Positions 14,044 through 40,419 of a stretch of DNA of 48,657 bases are shown here, one piece after another. The stretch comes from Bacteroidota bacterium (GTDB lineage Bacteria > Bacteroidota > Ignavibacteria > SZUA-365): positions 1 through 48,657 of the forward strand of contig QKAF01000038.1 of NCBI GenBank assembly GCA_003246455.1. The letters are read 5' to 3'. Position 1 is the first letter of the stretch. Every line of letters begins with the position of its first letter. A program made the translations under genes and the position numbers. The notes under the pieces are model-generated. The model had not been told where the DNA came from, did no database searches, and saw nothing but the letters and a program-made list of their open reading frames with translations.

Positions 14044-15203
14044 CACAGTCCGTAATCTTTGATTTTTCTGTACAAAGTTCGTTCACTTATGTTCAATGCC
14101 TCGGCGGCCAGCCTCCGATTGCCGTGGAAACGCCGGAGCATGTGCGCGATAAGCTCTTCCTCCATGCCGCGCAGCGTCATATCGTCCATGTGCACGGTGC
14201 CGCCATCGCCCTGTTCGCCGGGCGGCAGGGAGAGCGGCGGACGGTGCTGAAGCTCGCCCACCATGCCGCGGAGATCCTGCAGATCGTTTTTTATCTCCCA
14301 GAGAAGCCGGAAAATCAGCTCGCGTTCGGCCTGCTCGGGGGGCTTGCCGAGGTGCATCGGGAGGGAACGATCCTCGTAGGGTTCCTCCATGAACTGCAGG
14401 TACTTTGCGATCACATGCTCGTCGACCACGTTTCCGCGCTCGAGGATGATGACGCTCTCGATCACGTTGCGCAGTTCACGCACGTTCCCCGGCCAGTTGT
14501 GGCGCATCAGCGCGGCCATGCCGTCGTCGGTGATCAGAATGTCCTTCCGCGCATCGCCCGCGAGACTGGCAAGGAAAGACTCCACCAGCAGCGGGATGTC
14601 GCCGCGCCTGCTGCGCAGCGGCGGAATGCGGATGTTCACCGAACGAAGGCGGAAAAACAGGTCCTGCCGGAAACGGCGGCTGCGGACTTCCTCTTCCAGG
14701 CTCTTGTTGGTCGCGGCAATCACGCGGACGTCGGAGCGCCGCGGTTCGGAGCTGCCCACGCGCATGAATTCCCCGCTCTCGAGCACGCGAAGCAGCTTGA
14801 CCTGCGTGGAAATCGGGGTATCCCCGATCTCATCGAGAAAGATCGTCCCGCCGTCCGCCAGCTCGAAATATCCCTTCCGCGTTTCCACGGCGCCGGTAAA
14901 CGAGCCCTTCTCATGTCCGAAGAGTTCGCTCTCGAGTATGCCCTCGGGAATGGCCCCGCAGTTGACCGGAATGAATTTCCGTGCAGCCCGGCGGCTCGCG
15001 CTGTGGATGGCCTTCGCGATCACTTCCTTGCCGGTTCCGCTTTCCCCCGTCACCAGGACCGTGATATCGGTCGGCGCCACCTGCATGATCGTATCGACCA
15101 CCTCCCGGATCTCGGTGCTTTTGCCGATGATGCCGTGACGCCGCTGAAAGGCCTGGCGATCCCCCGAGGAAATGTTCATGGCTCCTGTTGTGACGTCGCT
15201 CAT
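14043..15203 (-). CDS. Sigma-54-dependent transcriptional activator (AAA+ and Fis HTH, no receiver)
   Basis: A 386-residue regulator. Only ~24 residues precede the AAA+ domain, so there is no receiver or sensor domain. Walker A is GESGTGKE (53-60), the sigma-54 contact loop is GSFTGA (100-105; serine replaces the usual alanine), Walker B is IFLDEIG (121-127), and the C-terminus is a Fis-type helix-turn-helix ([24 protein letters not shown] region, from ~361). It activates promoters read by RpoN; without a receiver its activity is probably set by abundance or a partner. The start overlaps the MBL gene's stop by ATGA, and its stop shares a base with the lptE start. A consensus sigma-54 promoter exists at 38354-38370. 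Confidence 0.94.
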
Positions 15204-36515: not shown

Positions 36516-37094
36516 ATGAACAGCATCGATCACGCCTTTCACGACGCACAGCACTTTCTCGCGCGATTCATCAACGACGACGAACAGTACCCGCGGGTAC
36601 AGCTCTTCGCCGAAAAACTGGCCGCGACCTTTCGTGCCGGCTGCAAGGCAATGTCATGCGGGAACGGCGGTTCGATGAGCGATGCGATGCATTTCGCCGA
36701 GGAATGGAGCGGCCGCTACCGTAAGGAGCGCCCCCCCCTTCCCGCGATCGCTTTCAGTGATCCGGGACATATGAGCTGCGTCGCGAACGACTATGGATTC
36801 GCGGAGGTTTTCGCGCGTCAGGTGCAGGCGCTGGGCAAGGAAGGCGACCTCCTGCTCATGCTCAGCACCAGCGGAAATTCGCCGAACCTCCTGCGCGCGG
36901 CGGAGGAAGCGCGCGCGAAAGGCGTGACCACCGTGGGACTGCTCGGCAAGGGAGGCGGTTCGCTGCTGCCGCTCTGCGATCTCTCCATCGTGGTCCCGGG
37001 CAACACCAGCGACCGCATCCAGGAGCTTCACATCAAGATCATTCATATCGTGATCGAGACTGTGGAGCGGACCCTCTTCCCGGACCTGTACTGA
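36516..37094 (+). CDS. gmhA: Phosphoheptose isomerase GmhA (SIS domain)
   Basis: 192 residues, full length. SCGNGGSMSDAMHFAEEWSGRYR, ISFSDPGHMSCVANDYGF-type segment and STSGNSPNLLRAAEEA are typical of GmhA; the zinc/active-site residues H-x3-E in MHFAEE and Q/H in RIQELHIKIIHI are kept. It turns sedoheptulose-7-phosphate into D-glycero-D-manno-heptose-7-phosphate, the first step of the LPS inner-core heptose pathway, consistent with the LptE gene. It probably shares a transcript with the fumarase gene and is followed by two hairpins, the second a strong terminator. Confidence 0.95.
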   Translation: MNSIDHAFHDAQHFLARFINDDEQYPRVQLFAEKLAATFRAGCKAMSCGNGGSMSDAMHFAEEWSGRYRKERPPLPAIAFSDPGHMSCVANDYGFAEVFARQVQALGKEGDLLLMLSTSGNSPNLLRAAEEARAKGVTTVGLLGKGGGSLLPLCDLSIVVPGNTSDRIQELHIKIIHIVIETVERTLFPDLY

Positions 37095-37096
37095 CA

Positions 37097-37164
37097 GCCA
37101 GGTCAGGATTCCTGGCCGTCATTCGTTTATAGGAGAATAAGCCGGACCTGCCGTCCGGCTTTTT
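37097..37164 (+). terminator. Double-hairpin terminator after gmhA
   Basis: First hairpin GCCAGG/CCTGGC (37097-37116) right after the stop; second a perfect 9-bp stem AAGCCGGAC, loop CTGCC, GTCCGGCTT, followed by TTT (37139-37164). Confidence 0.88.
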
Positions 37165-37202
37165 CCTGCAATGACCCTTTCCCCGGCTGTGCAAAATTTT
37201 AC

Positions 37203-37231
37203 TTGCTTTTCGGGAAAGAATACCATAGATT
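37203..37231 (+). promoter_or_regulatory. Candidate promoter of the first mini sorting-domain gene
   Basis: TTGCTT, 17-base spacer, TAGATT, ending ~75 bases before the ATG at 37307. Moderate match only; no sigma-54 site was seen here, unlike the paralogue at 38.4 kb. Confidence 0.4.
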
Positions 37232-37306
37232 TCTCCCCTCACTCTCTCTCCACTCTCACTTGTTCTTTGACTGAAACGTGAAAGTCATTTAGAACATGGT
37301 GAGAAT

Positions 37307-38146
37307 ATGTATCGCTTTTCCCTGACCGCCATCGCGCTCCTGCTGCTCTGCGGCATGAGTTTGGCTGAACCCTCTCCTCAGAACATGCAGTTTGCAGCTC
37401 TGACAGGTGAGGTTTTGCCGTTGCATTCCTCCGTTACGTCTGGTGATGAGTCCCCTGACGGCAGAATCCCGTCCGCCAGCATTCCTTCGCGTTCGTCCGA
37501 CGCCGCGCTTCTCCCGAGCATGGCGCTGAACGAGCAATCCTCCGTGCTGTCCTCGTCCGCCGCGGTCTCGCGCCGCGACGAGCAGCATCCGGACTTCATC
37601 TCCTTCGAAGGATCGTATGTCAAGGACCTTGTCCGACTGAACTGGACCGTCGCGCCGGGCGCGAAAGCTCTCGGTTTCGCCATCGAACGCCGGTCGCAGT
37701 GTGACGAGCAGTGGTCGACGATCTCCTACTCCCGGGTCAACCCACGGAAGAAGGTGTCGGACTATTCGTATTTCGATTATGCGGGCGTCCGGGGTGTCAC
37801 GTATTACCGTCTCCGCCAGGTGGATGAAAGCGGCAAGAGCCTGCCCACCCCCGCGATCTGCGTGATGCCGAGCACGGTCCCGAACTCCTTCATCATCTGG
37901 CAGCATACGATCGATCCCTTCACGCGCTTCGGGACGCTGTCCTTCGGGCTCGGCAGTGCGATGCCTGTCCGCGTCACCATGATCGACAGCTACGGACGCA
38001 GCGTCGCCACGCTTGTCGAGAGCGCGCAGCTGGATGCCGGGCACCACATTCTTCCGTTCAGCACGGCAGCTCTCCCGGCGGGGATGTATACGCTTCGGCT
38101 GGAATCCGCCAGCGGCGTACAGTCCCAGCGTCTTGCCGTGCTCTGA
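37307..38146 (+). CDS. Secreted Fn3-like/T9SS-tail protein, paralogue 1
   Basis: 279 residues. Signal peptide MYRFSLTAIALLLLCGMSLAEP, a Ser-rich low-complexity stretch (~35-90), then an Fn3-like module (VRLNWTV; GFAIERRS; YYRLRQVDESG) and a T9SS-type tail (VTMIDSYGRSVATLVES; AGMYTLRLESASG; ending QRLAVL). The core matches the protein at 38.4 kb in layout and motifs, so they are tandem paralogues; this one has an extra Ser-rich insert. There is no catalytic domain. GGTGAG lies 5 bases before the ATG. Role unknown; surface display or adhesion is inference. Confidence 0.85.
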   Translation: MYRFSLTAIALLLLCGMSLAEPSPQNMQFAALTGEVLPLHSSVTSGDESPDGRIPSASIPSRSSDAALLPSMALNEQSSVLSSSAAVSRRDEQHPDFISFEGSYVKDLVRLNWTVAPGAKALGFAIERRSQCDEQWSTISYSRVNPRKKVSDYSYFDYAGVRGVTYYRLRQVDESGKSLPTPAICVMPSTVPNSFIIWQHTIDPFTRFGTLSFGLGSAMPVRVTMIDSYGRSVATLVESAQLDAGHHILPFSTAALPAGMYTLRLESASGVQSQRLAVL

Positions 38147-38197
38147 GCGCGGTCTTTTCGCAGCGCACGCTTCTTTTCTTTTCACGCACCATGTTCG

Positions 38198-38249
38198 AAT
38201 GGGGCCGGTCGATCCGCCACTGCGGCGAGATTCCGGCCCCATTTCTGTT
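38198..38249 (+). terminator. Terminator after paralogue 1
   Basis: Perfect 11-bp stem AATGGGGCCGG/CCGGCCCCATT with a 24-base loop holding an inner CGCC/GGCG pair, followed by TCTGTTT. It separates the two paralogues into independent units. Confidence 0.8.
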
Positions 38250-38353
38250 TCCAGCCTGCTGATCGCCGTTCGGATTCCGAACGCGGCGTGTCGGAATTCG
38301 TATACAGCCCATCTTGATTCGCTGAAAACAGCCTGTTTTGCTGATTCCGCCAA

Positions 38354-38370
38354 TTGGCACGGAGCTTGCT
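38354..38370 (+). promoter_or_regulatory. Consensus sigma-54 promoter (-24/-12)
   Basis: TTGGCACGGAGCTTGCT matches the sigma-54 consensus (TGGCACG-N4-TTGCW) at every fixed position, with exactly ten bases between the -24 GG and the -12 GC. The -12 element ends ~50 bases before the ATG of paralogue 2. An activator of RpoN is encoded at 14043-15203. No enhancer site could be recognised. Confidence 0.85.
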
Positions 38371-38419
38371 CTATTCGGTGCAGTTGGAATGAAAAACGAA
38401 TCAGCGAAATGGTGAAAAA

Positions 38420-39070
38420 ATGAAAACTGCATCTCTCGTCCTCTTCTTCGTGATGTCCTTCGCGGCCGTGACGAACGCAGCCGCCCCCCGGCCGACCGCC
38501 GCCGATGGAGTACAGATTTCCCAGTTTTCCGCAGCCCGTATTCAGGACCTGATCACGCTGAACTGGAACACCCTGGGAGAACGAAACAACCTCGGCTTTG
38601 AAATCGAGCGAAAAAGCCAGTTTGAAGAAAAATGGCAGACGGTGGGATACCTGCGCGGCCGCGGAACGGCTGCAGGCAGCAAGGATTATGCCTTTGTGGA
38701 GAGACTTTCGAGCACCGAAGTCGTCCTGTACCGCATCAAGCAGATCGACGTCTCCGGCAGTTTCCTTTACTCGCAGGCGGTGACGGTAACCCCGGATCAG
38801 TTTCGCGCCTCCATGCTCGTGAGCCCGGTGGCGGACCACCCCAGCGTTGAATACAACCGTCTTTCCTTTGCCCTTCCCGCCGACTGCAGAGTATCCGCGG
38901 CAGTGCACGACGTCTACGGTCGGAAGGTGCATACGATCAGTGACGGTCAGCGTCTGGACGCAGGCTATCACGTGATTCCTTTCGGCTCGGCCTCCCTCGC
39001 ACCGGGGGTGTACAGCGTACGGCTCGTCACGGATGCCGGCACCTTCGTGCGCACCTTTACGAAGCGTTGA
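38420..39070 (+). CDS. Secreted Fn3-like/T9SS-tail protein, paralogue 2 (sigma-54 promoter)
   Basis: 216 residues. Signal peptide MKTASLVLFFVMSFAAVTNAA, then an Fn3-like module beginning SAARIQDLITLNWNTLGERNN with GFEIERKSQ, WQTVGYLRG, YRIKQIDVSGSF, and a C-terminal sorting-type domain (SAAVHDVYGRKVHTISDG; GVYSVRLVTDAG; end TFTKR). It is little more than a T9SS tail with one preceding domain. GGTGA precedes the ATG. The perfect sigma-54 promoter 50 bases upstream implies condition-dependent, activator-driven expression. A strong hairpin follows. Function unknown. Confidence 0.87.
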   Translation: MKTASLVLFFVMSFAAVTNAAAPRPTAADGVQISQFSAARIQDLITLNWNTLGERNNLGFEIERKSQFEEKWQTVGYLRGRGTAAGSKDYAFVERLSSTEVVLYRIKQIDVSGSFLYSQAVTVTPDQFRASMLVSPVADHPSVEYNRLSFALPADCRVSAAVHDVYGRKVHTISDGQRLDAGYHVIPFGSASLAPGVYSVRLVTDAGTFVRTFTKR

Positions 39071-39090
39071 CGGTCATTCCGTGAAGAGAG

Positions 39091-39130
39091 ACGCAGACGG
39101 CCGTGCATTCAGCGCGGCCGTCTGTGTTTC
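39091..39130. terminator. Hairpin between convergent genes (paralogue 2 and NDH-2)
   Basis: 13-bp stem ACGCAGACGGCCG/CGGCCGTCTGTGT (one wobble) with an 11-base loop, followed by TTC. It begins 20 bases after the stop and could serve both strands, though T-runs are short. Confidence 0.65.
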
Positions 39131-39156
39131 ACACCCGTCGGTCCCTCCCGCGTCCC

Positions 39157-40419
39157 CTACCAGTGACCGGACCAGTTCTGCCGCTCCTTCCAGAGCAGGA
39201 AAATATGTTTCTCACTGATCGCCCGCTTGAGAAGGCTTCCGAGAAATCCCAGGAAACGGAAACGCATCCCGACCGGAAGCGCCGCCCAGCCGACCGCGAG
39301 ATGCTTCCCGAGTGAAACGACCTCCCCGAGCACCTTCGGGTGGTATTCTTTCAGCCCATGCCCATCCAGCAGCCGGTACAGATTGTCGGCGGTGAGATAC
39401 CCCTGCTGAAGCGCAAACTGCGCCGCGGTGGGAACGGCGTCGCCCCCGCGGGGATTGAGCGCCAGGGCGTTGTCGCCGATGGCGAAAACCTCGGGGTAAT
39501 GACGCACCTGCAGAAATTCGTTCACGATCACGCGGCCCTGCGGACCCGTTTCCGCGCCGCTGCGACGGATCAGATCCGAAATGCGAATTCCCCCCGTCCA
39601 GATCATCGTGCGGGTGGGAATCGGTTCGCCCGGCGACCGCAGCACCTCGAGCCGGCCGTCCGTCTCCCGCATTCCCGTCACCCGGGTGTTCGTCAGGATC
39701 TGTATCCCCATGGCCTGCATGGCTTCCGCCGATCTCGCCACCTGCCTGCCGTCGAGGGAGGGAAGGATTCGATCCGACAGTTCCACGAGCATCATTTCTG
39801 CTTCGCTGTGGTCGAGATGGTATTGCTCGCTCAGCGCGTCGAATCGTTCCGCCATCTCCGTCGCGAGTTCGACGCCGGTGAGTCCCCCTCCGCCGATGAG
39901 AAAGCGAAGATACTCCTTGCGCTTGTTCTGGTTCGTCTCCGTTGCCGCGATCGCGAACATGCGTTCGGTATGCGCGCGGATGCGCTCCGAATCCTCGAGT
40001 TCCTTGAGCTGAAACGCATGCTCCTCGAGGCCGGGAATCTGGTAGAAGTTGGTCTTGCTGCCCAGTGCGATCACGAGCGCGTCATATCGAATGCGCCGCG
40101 GCTGCGCGGTCGTGGTATCGGTCATGCCGAAGTCGAGTTCCACGTAGCGGTCGTCCAGCGCGATGTGCGTGACCTCGCCGAGATGAAAGGTGACGTTGGG
40201 CCGTTTGGCGAGGAACCGTGAGAGCGGAATGGTGATTTCCGATTCGCGGACGGCGCGTTCGTGCAGGCGCGTTTCGAGAAGATGGTAGGTGTGCCGGTCC
40301 ACGAGATGAATGCGAACGTCCGTGCGCTTTCGGAAGCGCCGGGAGAGCCGCGTCACACAGCTCATGCCCCCGTAGCCGGCACCGAGAATGACTATATCCG
40401 TGTACTTCACTGCGTTCAT
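39157..40419 (-). CDS. Type II NADH dehydrogenase-like FAD oxidoreductase (NDH-2)
   Basis: 420 residues. N-terminal FAD motif IVILGAGYGGMSCVTRL, second Rossmann motif FLIGGGGLTGVELATEM for NADH, and the FAD-closing motif FAIGDNALA; AQFALQQGYL is the quinone-site AQxAxQ motif of NDH-2. The C-terminus is amphipathic, suited to monotopic membrane binding. It oxidises NADH and reduces quinone without pumping protons. Length agrees with the family. It lies downstream of the metallopeptidase gene on the minus strand but is separated by a strong hairpin (40454-40485), so it is probably transcribed separately or by read-through. Confidence 0.93.
   Translation of the reverse strand: MNAVKYTDIVILGAGYGGMSCVTRLSRRFRKRTDVRIHLVDRHTYHLLETRLHERAVRESEITIPLSRFLAKRPNVTFHLGEVTHIALDDRYVELDFGMTDTTTAQPRRIRYDALVIALGSKTNFYQIPGLEEHAFQLKELEDSERIRAHTERMFAIAATETNQNKRKEYLRFLIGGGGLTGVELATEMAERFDALSEQYHLDHSEAEMMLVELSDRILPSLDGRQVARSAEAMQAMGIQILTNTRVTGMRETDGRLEVLRSPGEPIPTRTMIWTGGIRISDLIRRSGAETGPQGRVIVNEFLQVRHYPEVFAIGDNALALNPRGGDAVPTAAQFALQQGYLTADNLYRLLDGHGLKEYHPKVLGEVVSLGKHLAVGWAALPVGMRFRFLGFLGSLLKRAISEKHIFLLWKERQNWSGHW

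Follow-up and report, generated by a model that had tools for sequence, protein, structure and literature searches.

The window, meaning the whole 48,657-nucleotide stretch of DNA analyzed, comes from a genome (4.1 Mb, 165 contigs; hereafter the host genome) whose closest named relatives are uncultured Ignavibacteria and Bacteroidetes MAGs. It carries a small gene, p2, within the order fumarase, SIS, p1, (p2), NADH dehydrogenase, which is kept in the family. The features discussed here, including a second unit on contig C101 of the same genome, are as follows.

14046..15203, minus strand: receiver-less sigma-54 activator (bEBP) with PF00158, lid and HTH_8, in a miaB-SPOR-MBL-bEBP-LptE operon
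37307..38146, plus strand: p1, tandem paralogue of p2, 279 aa, with the same two-domain end (34% identity to the p2 query, E 6e-31)
38268..38282, plus strand: enhancer (UAS) palindrome GTTCGGATTCCGAAC, a predicted bEBP site with a rare core, retained at 13 promoters across 8 genomes
38289..38303, plus strand: second, weaker enhancer copy TGTCGGAATTCGTAT, 21 bp nearer the promoter, matching at 10/15 positions
38355..38369, plus strand: predicted sigma-54 −24/−12 promoter TGGCACG-GAGC-TTGC, exact consensus, with TTGGCACG-N4-TTG invariant in a four-species upstream alignment
38381, plus strand: predicted transcription start, 12 bases 3′ of the −12 C at 38369
38420..39070, plus strand: p2, predicted secreted protein of 216 aa with signal peptide, Fn3-like domain and T9SS type A-like sorting domain
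39088..39130, plus strand: terminator-type hairpin 3′ of p2 (19-bp stem, −40.8 kcal/mol, z −7.1)
C101, 7866-12167 (L207): second unit, three tandem genes for predicted secreted proteins of 419-424 aa behind one enhancer/sigma-54 promoter

The AlphaFold model of p2 (pLDDT 83) comprises two beta-sandwich domains, residues 30-127 (Fn3-like) and 129-216, and the Fn3-like domain superimposes on an Ihog FNIII domain (Z 11.7, 2.2 Å over 96 residues). The tail scores 15.5 against TIGR04183, below the cut-off of 23. Across both domains, p2 aligns with the first cargo protein of the C101 unit, a paralogue whose own tail exceeds the cut-offs of PF18962 (3e-10) and TIGR04183 (34.6 bits, cut-off 23). PEP-CTERM models from NCBIfam matched none of p2, p1 and the C101 cargo. 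The preliminary description had called p2 almost only an Fn3-like module plus a sorting tail; the two-domain architecture bears this out, and the sorting assignment of the tail itself stays sub-threshold for TIGR04183. Together, these comparisons support the prediction that the p2 gene encodes a minimal T9SS-type cargo, and SprA of the T9SS machinery is encoded in the host genome (TIGR04189, 643 bits). Intact p2 genes, similar to one another from end to end, occur in the host, G001 and G009 (41-45% identity). In the second unit, the part of the first cargo before residue 344 had no Pfam match, the tandem genes are followed by one of 1018 aa, and the unit has no neighboring bEBP gene.

The 17 bases TTGGCACGGAGCTTGCT occupy 38354-38370 on the plus strand, 50 bases 5′ of the p2 ATG at 38420, and the TGGCACGGAGCTTGC they contain (38355-38369) is the window's only TGGCAC-N5-TTGC with no mismatch; a first-order model of the window predicts 0.09 occurrences of TGGCACN5TTGC and 0.036 of TGGCACGN4TTGC. 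The −24 GG and −12 GC doublets are both present at their fixed spacing. A consensus match at every fixed position, about 50 bases before a 216-residue protein (ORF end 39070), is thus exactly as first described. The sigma factor on which that description made its reading depend is encoded once (rpoN, C16:30033-30509, PF04552, E 7e-57), alongside 13 clear sigma-54 activators (bEBPs). Since rpoN and bEBPs are present, the site is conserved in orthologues and a palindrome lies in helical phase with it, we call the element a sigma-54 promoter, which it is by every sequence test available; as sigma-54 strictly requires an activator, p2 is predicted to be condition-switched. Upstream of p1, in the host and its relatives, neither an enhancer nor a sigma-54 site was seen.

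The putative enhancer GTTCGGATTCCGAAC is nested in a perfect 17-base palindrome, CGTTCGGATTCCGAACG (38267-38283), and lies 86 bp from the p2 promoter, start to start. The 4.1 Mb genome contains three copies of its 13-base core, where 0.5 would be expected; two copies precede perfect sigma-54 sites, those of p2 and the C101 cargo, and the third is in coding DNA. On C101 the spacing is 107 bp, that is, 21 bp or two helical turns beyond that of p2. The p2-type promoters also share a weaker second copy ~21 bp closer, which in G003 and G009 matches at 11/15 positions at the same distance of 65-66 bp from the promoter (these counts and the 10/15 of the host treat the central N as a match). No paper containing the palindrome string turned up in a literature search.

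Conservation across the family follows the same two elements. When the region upstream of p2 is aligned with those of G001, G009 and G003, the sigma-54 site forms the main invariant block and the palindrome, ~85 bp 5′, the second. Starting from the enhancer, seven of the nine exact TTCGGATTCCGAA palindromes in 12 family genomes have TGGCA[C/T][A/G] 70-115 bp downstream (chance ~4e-11, with genomes treated as independent). Enhancer and −24 box recur together in eight family genomes at 13 promoters (12 genes plus the gene-less site in G003), and both elements precede the first-copy C101-type cargo in the host, G003, G001, G007, G008, G005, G011 and G009. Because the −24 box belongs to the rule by which promoters were picked, selection accounts for some of its invariance. 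Neither the −13 G (13/13) nor the −14 T (12/13) entered that rule; background frequencies are 38% (G) and 16% (TG pair). Only 6/13 promoters retain the −12 C, the −12 box of relatives often being TTGA, TTGT, ATGC or GTGA, weaker than consensus. Distances from palindrome to box (107 bp in three promoters, 86 in four, 87 in two, and 96, 88, 84 and 76 in one each) fall mostly on the same side of the DNA helix (six representative values, R 0.85, P ~0.01). As the eight genomes are related, all these P values are optimistic. In G002, G004, G006 and G010, some of them incomplete drafts, we found neither the exact palindrome nor a close full-length C101-type cargo.

The switch precedes a second secreted family as well, in at least eight genomes, which argues for a small surface-protein regulon and not a chance motif. 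We therefore consider it highly probable, from sequence evidence, that the p2 site is the −24/−12 element of an enhancer-dependent sigma-54 promoter within a two-unit regulon of T9SS-type surface proteins. Under this proposal, sigma-54 RNA polymerase would wait in a closed state at 38355-38369, and dimers of a candidate bEBP would bind the palindrome at 38268-38282 and its weaker copy 21 bp nearer, come together as a hexamer and, through a DNA loop, use ATP hydrolysis to open the promoter. The predicted mRNA would start near 38381, encode p2 and end at the hairpin of 39088-39130. The same type of switch would drive the three tandem secreted-protein genes on C101, and a signal to one activator would thereby induce a few surface proteins at once.

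Several alternative readings must be weighed against this enhancer-dependent promoter. The palindrome might bind an ordinary regulator that is not a bEBP, with TGGCACG as part of the operator and transcription by another sigma factor; such an arrangement would fit the loss of the −12 C in 7/13 promoters and the fact that no bEBP could be assigned. It is very unlikely, however, given that −13 G and −14 T recur with precisely the spacing of sigma-54 sites around a variable four-base spacer, and that the distance between palindrome and box changes roughly one helical turn at a time, a behavior typical of looping enhancers but not of a fixed operator. The −24/−12 match could also have arisen by chance, p2 being read from an ordinary promoter. 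Genome-wide scoring, which used pattern searches only, gave eight exact TGGCAC-N5-TTGC sites against 7.7 expected by chance, which amounts to no overall enrichment; sites with up to one mismatch were not enriched either, being fewer than those of the reversed control (52 vs 143). The placement of the exact sites points the other way: two of the eight lie inside genes, but six are correctly oriented shortly 5′ of a start codon (P ~1.7e-6, assuming, not measuring, that 6.4% of positions qualify). Behind these six are p2, a lipoprotein-like gene, the C101 T9SS cargo, a small secreted protein, Lon and a gene with a signal-like N-terminus. Coincidence also fits poorly with a site kept in the orthologues of other species where the flanking DNA is not, with a rare palindrome at a helical-phase distance, and with the p2 region yielding no sigma-70-type site in a scan not tuned to the host phylum; we judge it highly improbable.

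The chance that the promoter serves mainly a short RNA, p2 being incidental, appears slimmer still. This reading draws on G003, where a perfect site TGGCACGATGCTTGC, an enhancer with one change and a similar hairpin sequence stand together without p2 (C139, 6987-7322; L065). Because promoter, enhancer and terminator are kept there, p2 is dispensable, and L065 is possibly an orphan sigma-54 promoter, perhaps reading a short RNA, or else a MAG error. Yet the region in G003 looks like an ORF deletion, p2 is intact in the three other genomes named above, and an Rfam scan of 37000-39300 gave no match. A variant of the enhancer-dependent reading would make the window's own bEBP the cognate activator. 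That a receiver-less sigma-54 activator is encoded in the window is correct (14046-15203, minus strand, no receiver domain), and its candidacy gains from its being complete, from its Fis-type HTH and from its orthologues in the regulon-bearing genomes compared. The tie to the p2 promoter implied by the preliminary description nevertheless falls away. All eight relatives compared retain this bEBP, among them the four without the regulon (G002, G004, G006 and G010, where the exact enhancer was not found). It sits in the miaB-LptE operon, a bEBP-LptE pair also being present in Flavobacterium psychrophilum according to one study (PMC9723704), and its surroundings contain no enhancer palindrome. 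Given the operon context and its retention in regulon-less genomes, nothing ties it to the promoter; it is probably a general bEBP, and unlikely to be the activator sought.

Other host activators were considered in turn. L048 fits the pattern within the genus but is missing from the enhancer-bearing G005, G007, G008, G009 and G011; it is found in full in the host genus only, with a partial match in G006, and the host protein (C144) has an unassigned N-terminal region of ~230 residues and RtcR as its second-best NCBIfam model (293 bits, below cut-off). L046 has the best presence/absence fit (absent from G004, G006 and G010), but its own cargo promoters lack the palindrome. Against the PrsR model (TIGR02915), the best of the ten host bEBPs scanned (L049, L050 and L051 aside) reached 423 bits, below the cut-off of 502.6. 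L039, L040, L042-L045 and L049 are possible activators; L040 (NtrX-like) occurs in all genomes, and L043 and L044 were not found in the incomplete G011.

The locus of L046 is of interest in its own right. L046 and a multi-domain kinase of 1657-1700 aa adjoin T9SS cargo in G003 (C107, L318), G002 (C244, L319), G007 (L320), G009 (L323) and the host (C47, L321). As in the p2 system, the T9SS-type cargo genes lie behind −24/−12 sites (~60-75 bp 3′ of them); unlike in the p2 system, the GTTCGG..CCGAAC palindrome is absent upstream, so L046 probably reads another site and the locus probably answers to another activator. A motif around CTTGTCCCACA / CCTTGTC is shared upstream of several of these cargo genes and may be L046's own enhancer.

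Systems of this general kind are known. In the PEP-CTERM/PrsK-PrsR regulon of Proteobacteria, one bEBP serves sorting-system cargo through an enhancer ~63 bp (32-92) before a −24/−12 site, with ~71 bp from promoter to start and large upstream regions (Haft et al. 2006, PMC1569441). The likeness to p2 is in layout (enhancer, sigma-54 site, secreted cargo), whereas the p2 and C101 cargo carry T9SS-type tails and the ten host bEBPs scanned fall below the PrsR cut-off. Closer in cargo export is F. psychrophilum, where the available text of the study cited above reports a sigma-54 (SM4) promoter, validated by reporter mutagenesis, for the T9SS adhesin operon remFG-sprCDBF, and lists Lon as a sigma-54 target (PMC9723704). 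A sigma-54 promoter ahead of genes for T9SS-type cargo, the Lon target and the bEBP-LptE pair are common to both; the cargo family and bacterial class differ, and that text reports no enhancer motif. With this sprB operon as precedent and a second such locus in the host family, the combination of RpoN with T9SS cargo is less unusual than first supposed. A literature search combining Ignavibacteria, sigma-54 and T9SS returned nothing relevant; the kind of system is thus known, and the regulon, enhancer and lineage are new to the literature searched.

One promoter-like site has in this way led to a defined regulon in Ignavibacteria with a testable enhancer sequence. We hypothesize, at roughly even odds, that T9SS surface proteins have a switch of their own in an undescribed bEBP of this Ignavibacteria family acting on GTTCGGATTCCGAAC, a counterpart of PrsK/PrsR, with the parallel bEBP-kinase locus showing recurrence. 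If that parallel holds, sigma-54 control of T9SS cargo would recur within the lineage. The comparison suggests a parallel origin of sigma-54 control over sorted surface proteins, PEP-CTERM in Proteobacteria and T9SS here. This would agree with an earlier view in which sigma-54 controls the exterior of the bacterial cell (PMC3162934).

Two further sites in the host genome were observed. An exact TGGCAC-N5-TTGC lies just 5′ of a Lon protease gene (C13:2825; Lon by PF02190). On C110 (3684-8114), a histidine kinase and the receiver bEBP L039 are encoded together. The kinase gene is preceded by a near-consensus sigma-54 site and the gene for a small secreted protein by a perfect one (7297); the locus resembles a self-contained two-component unit based on sigma-54.
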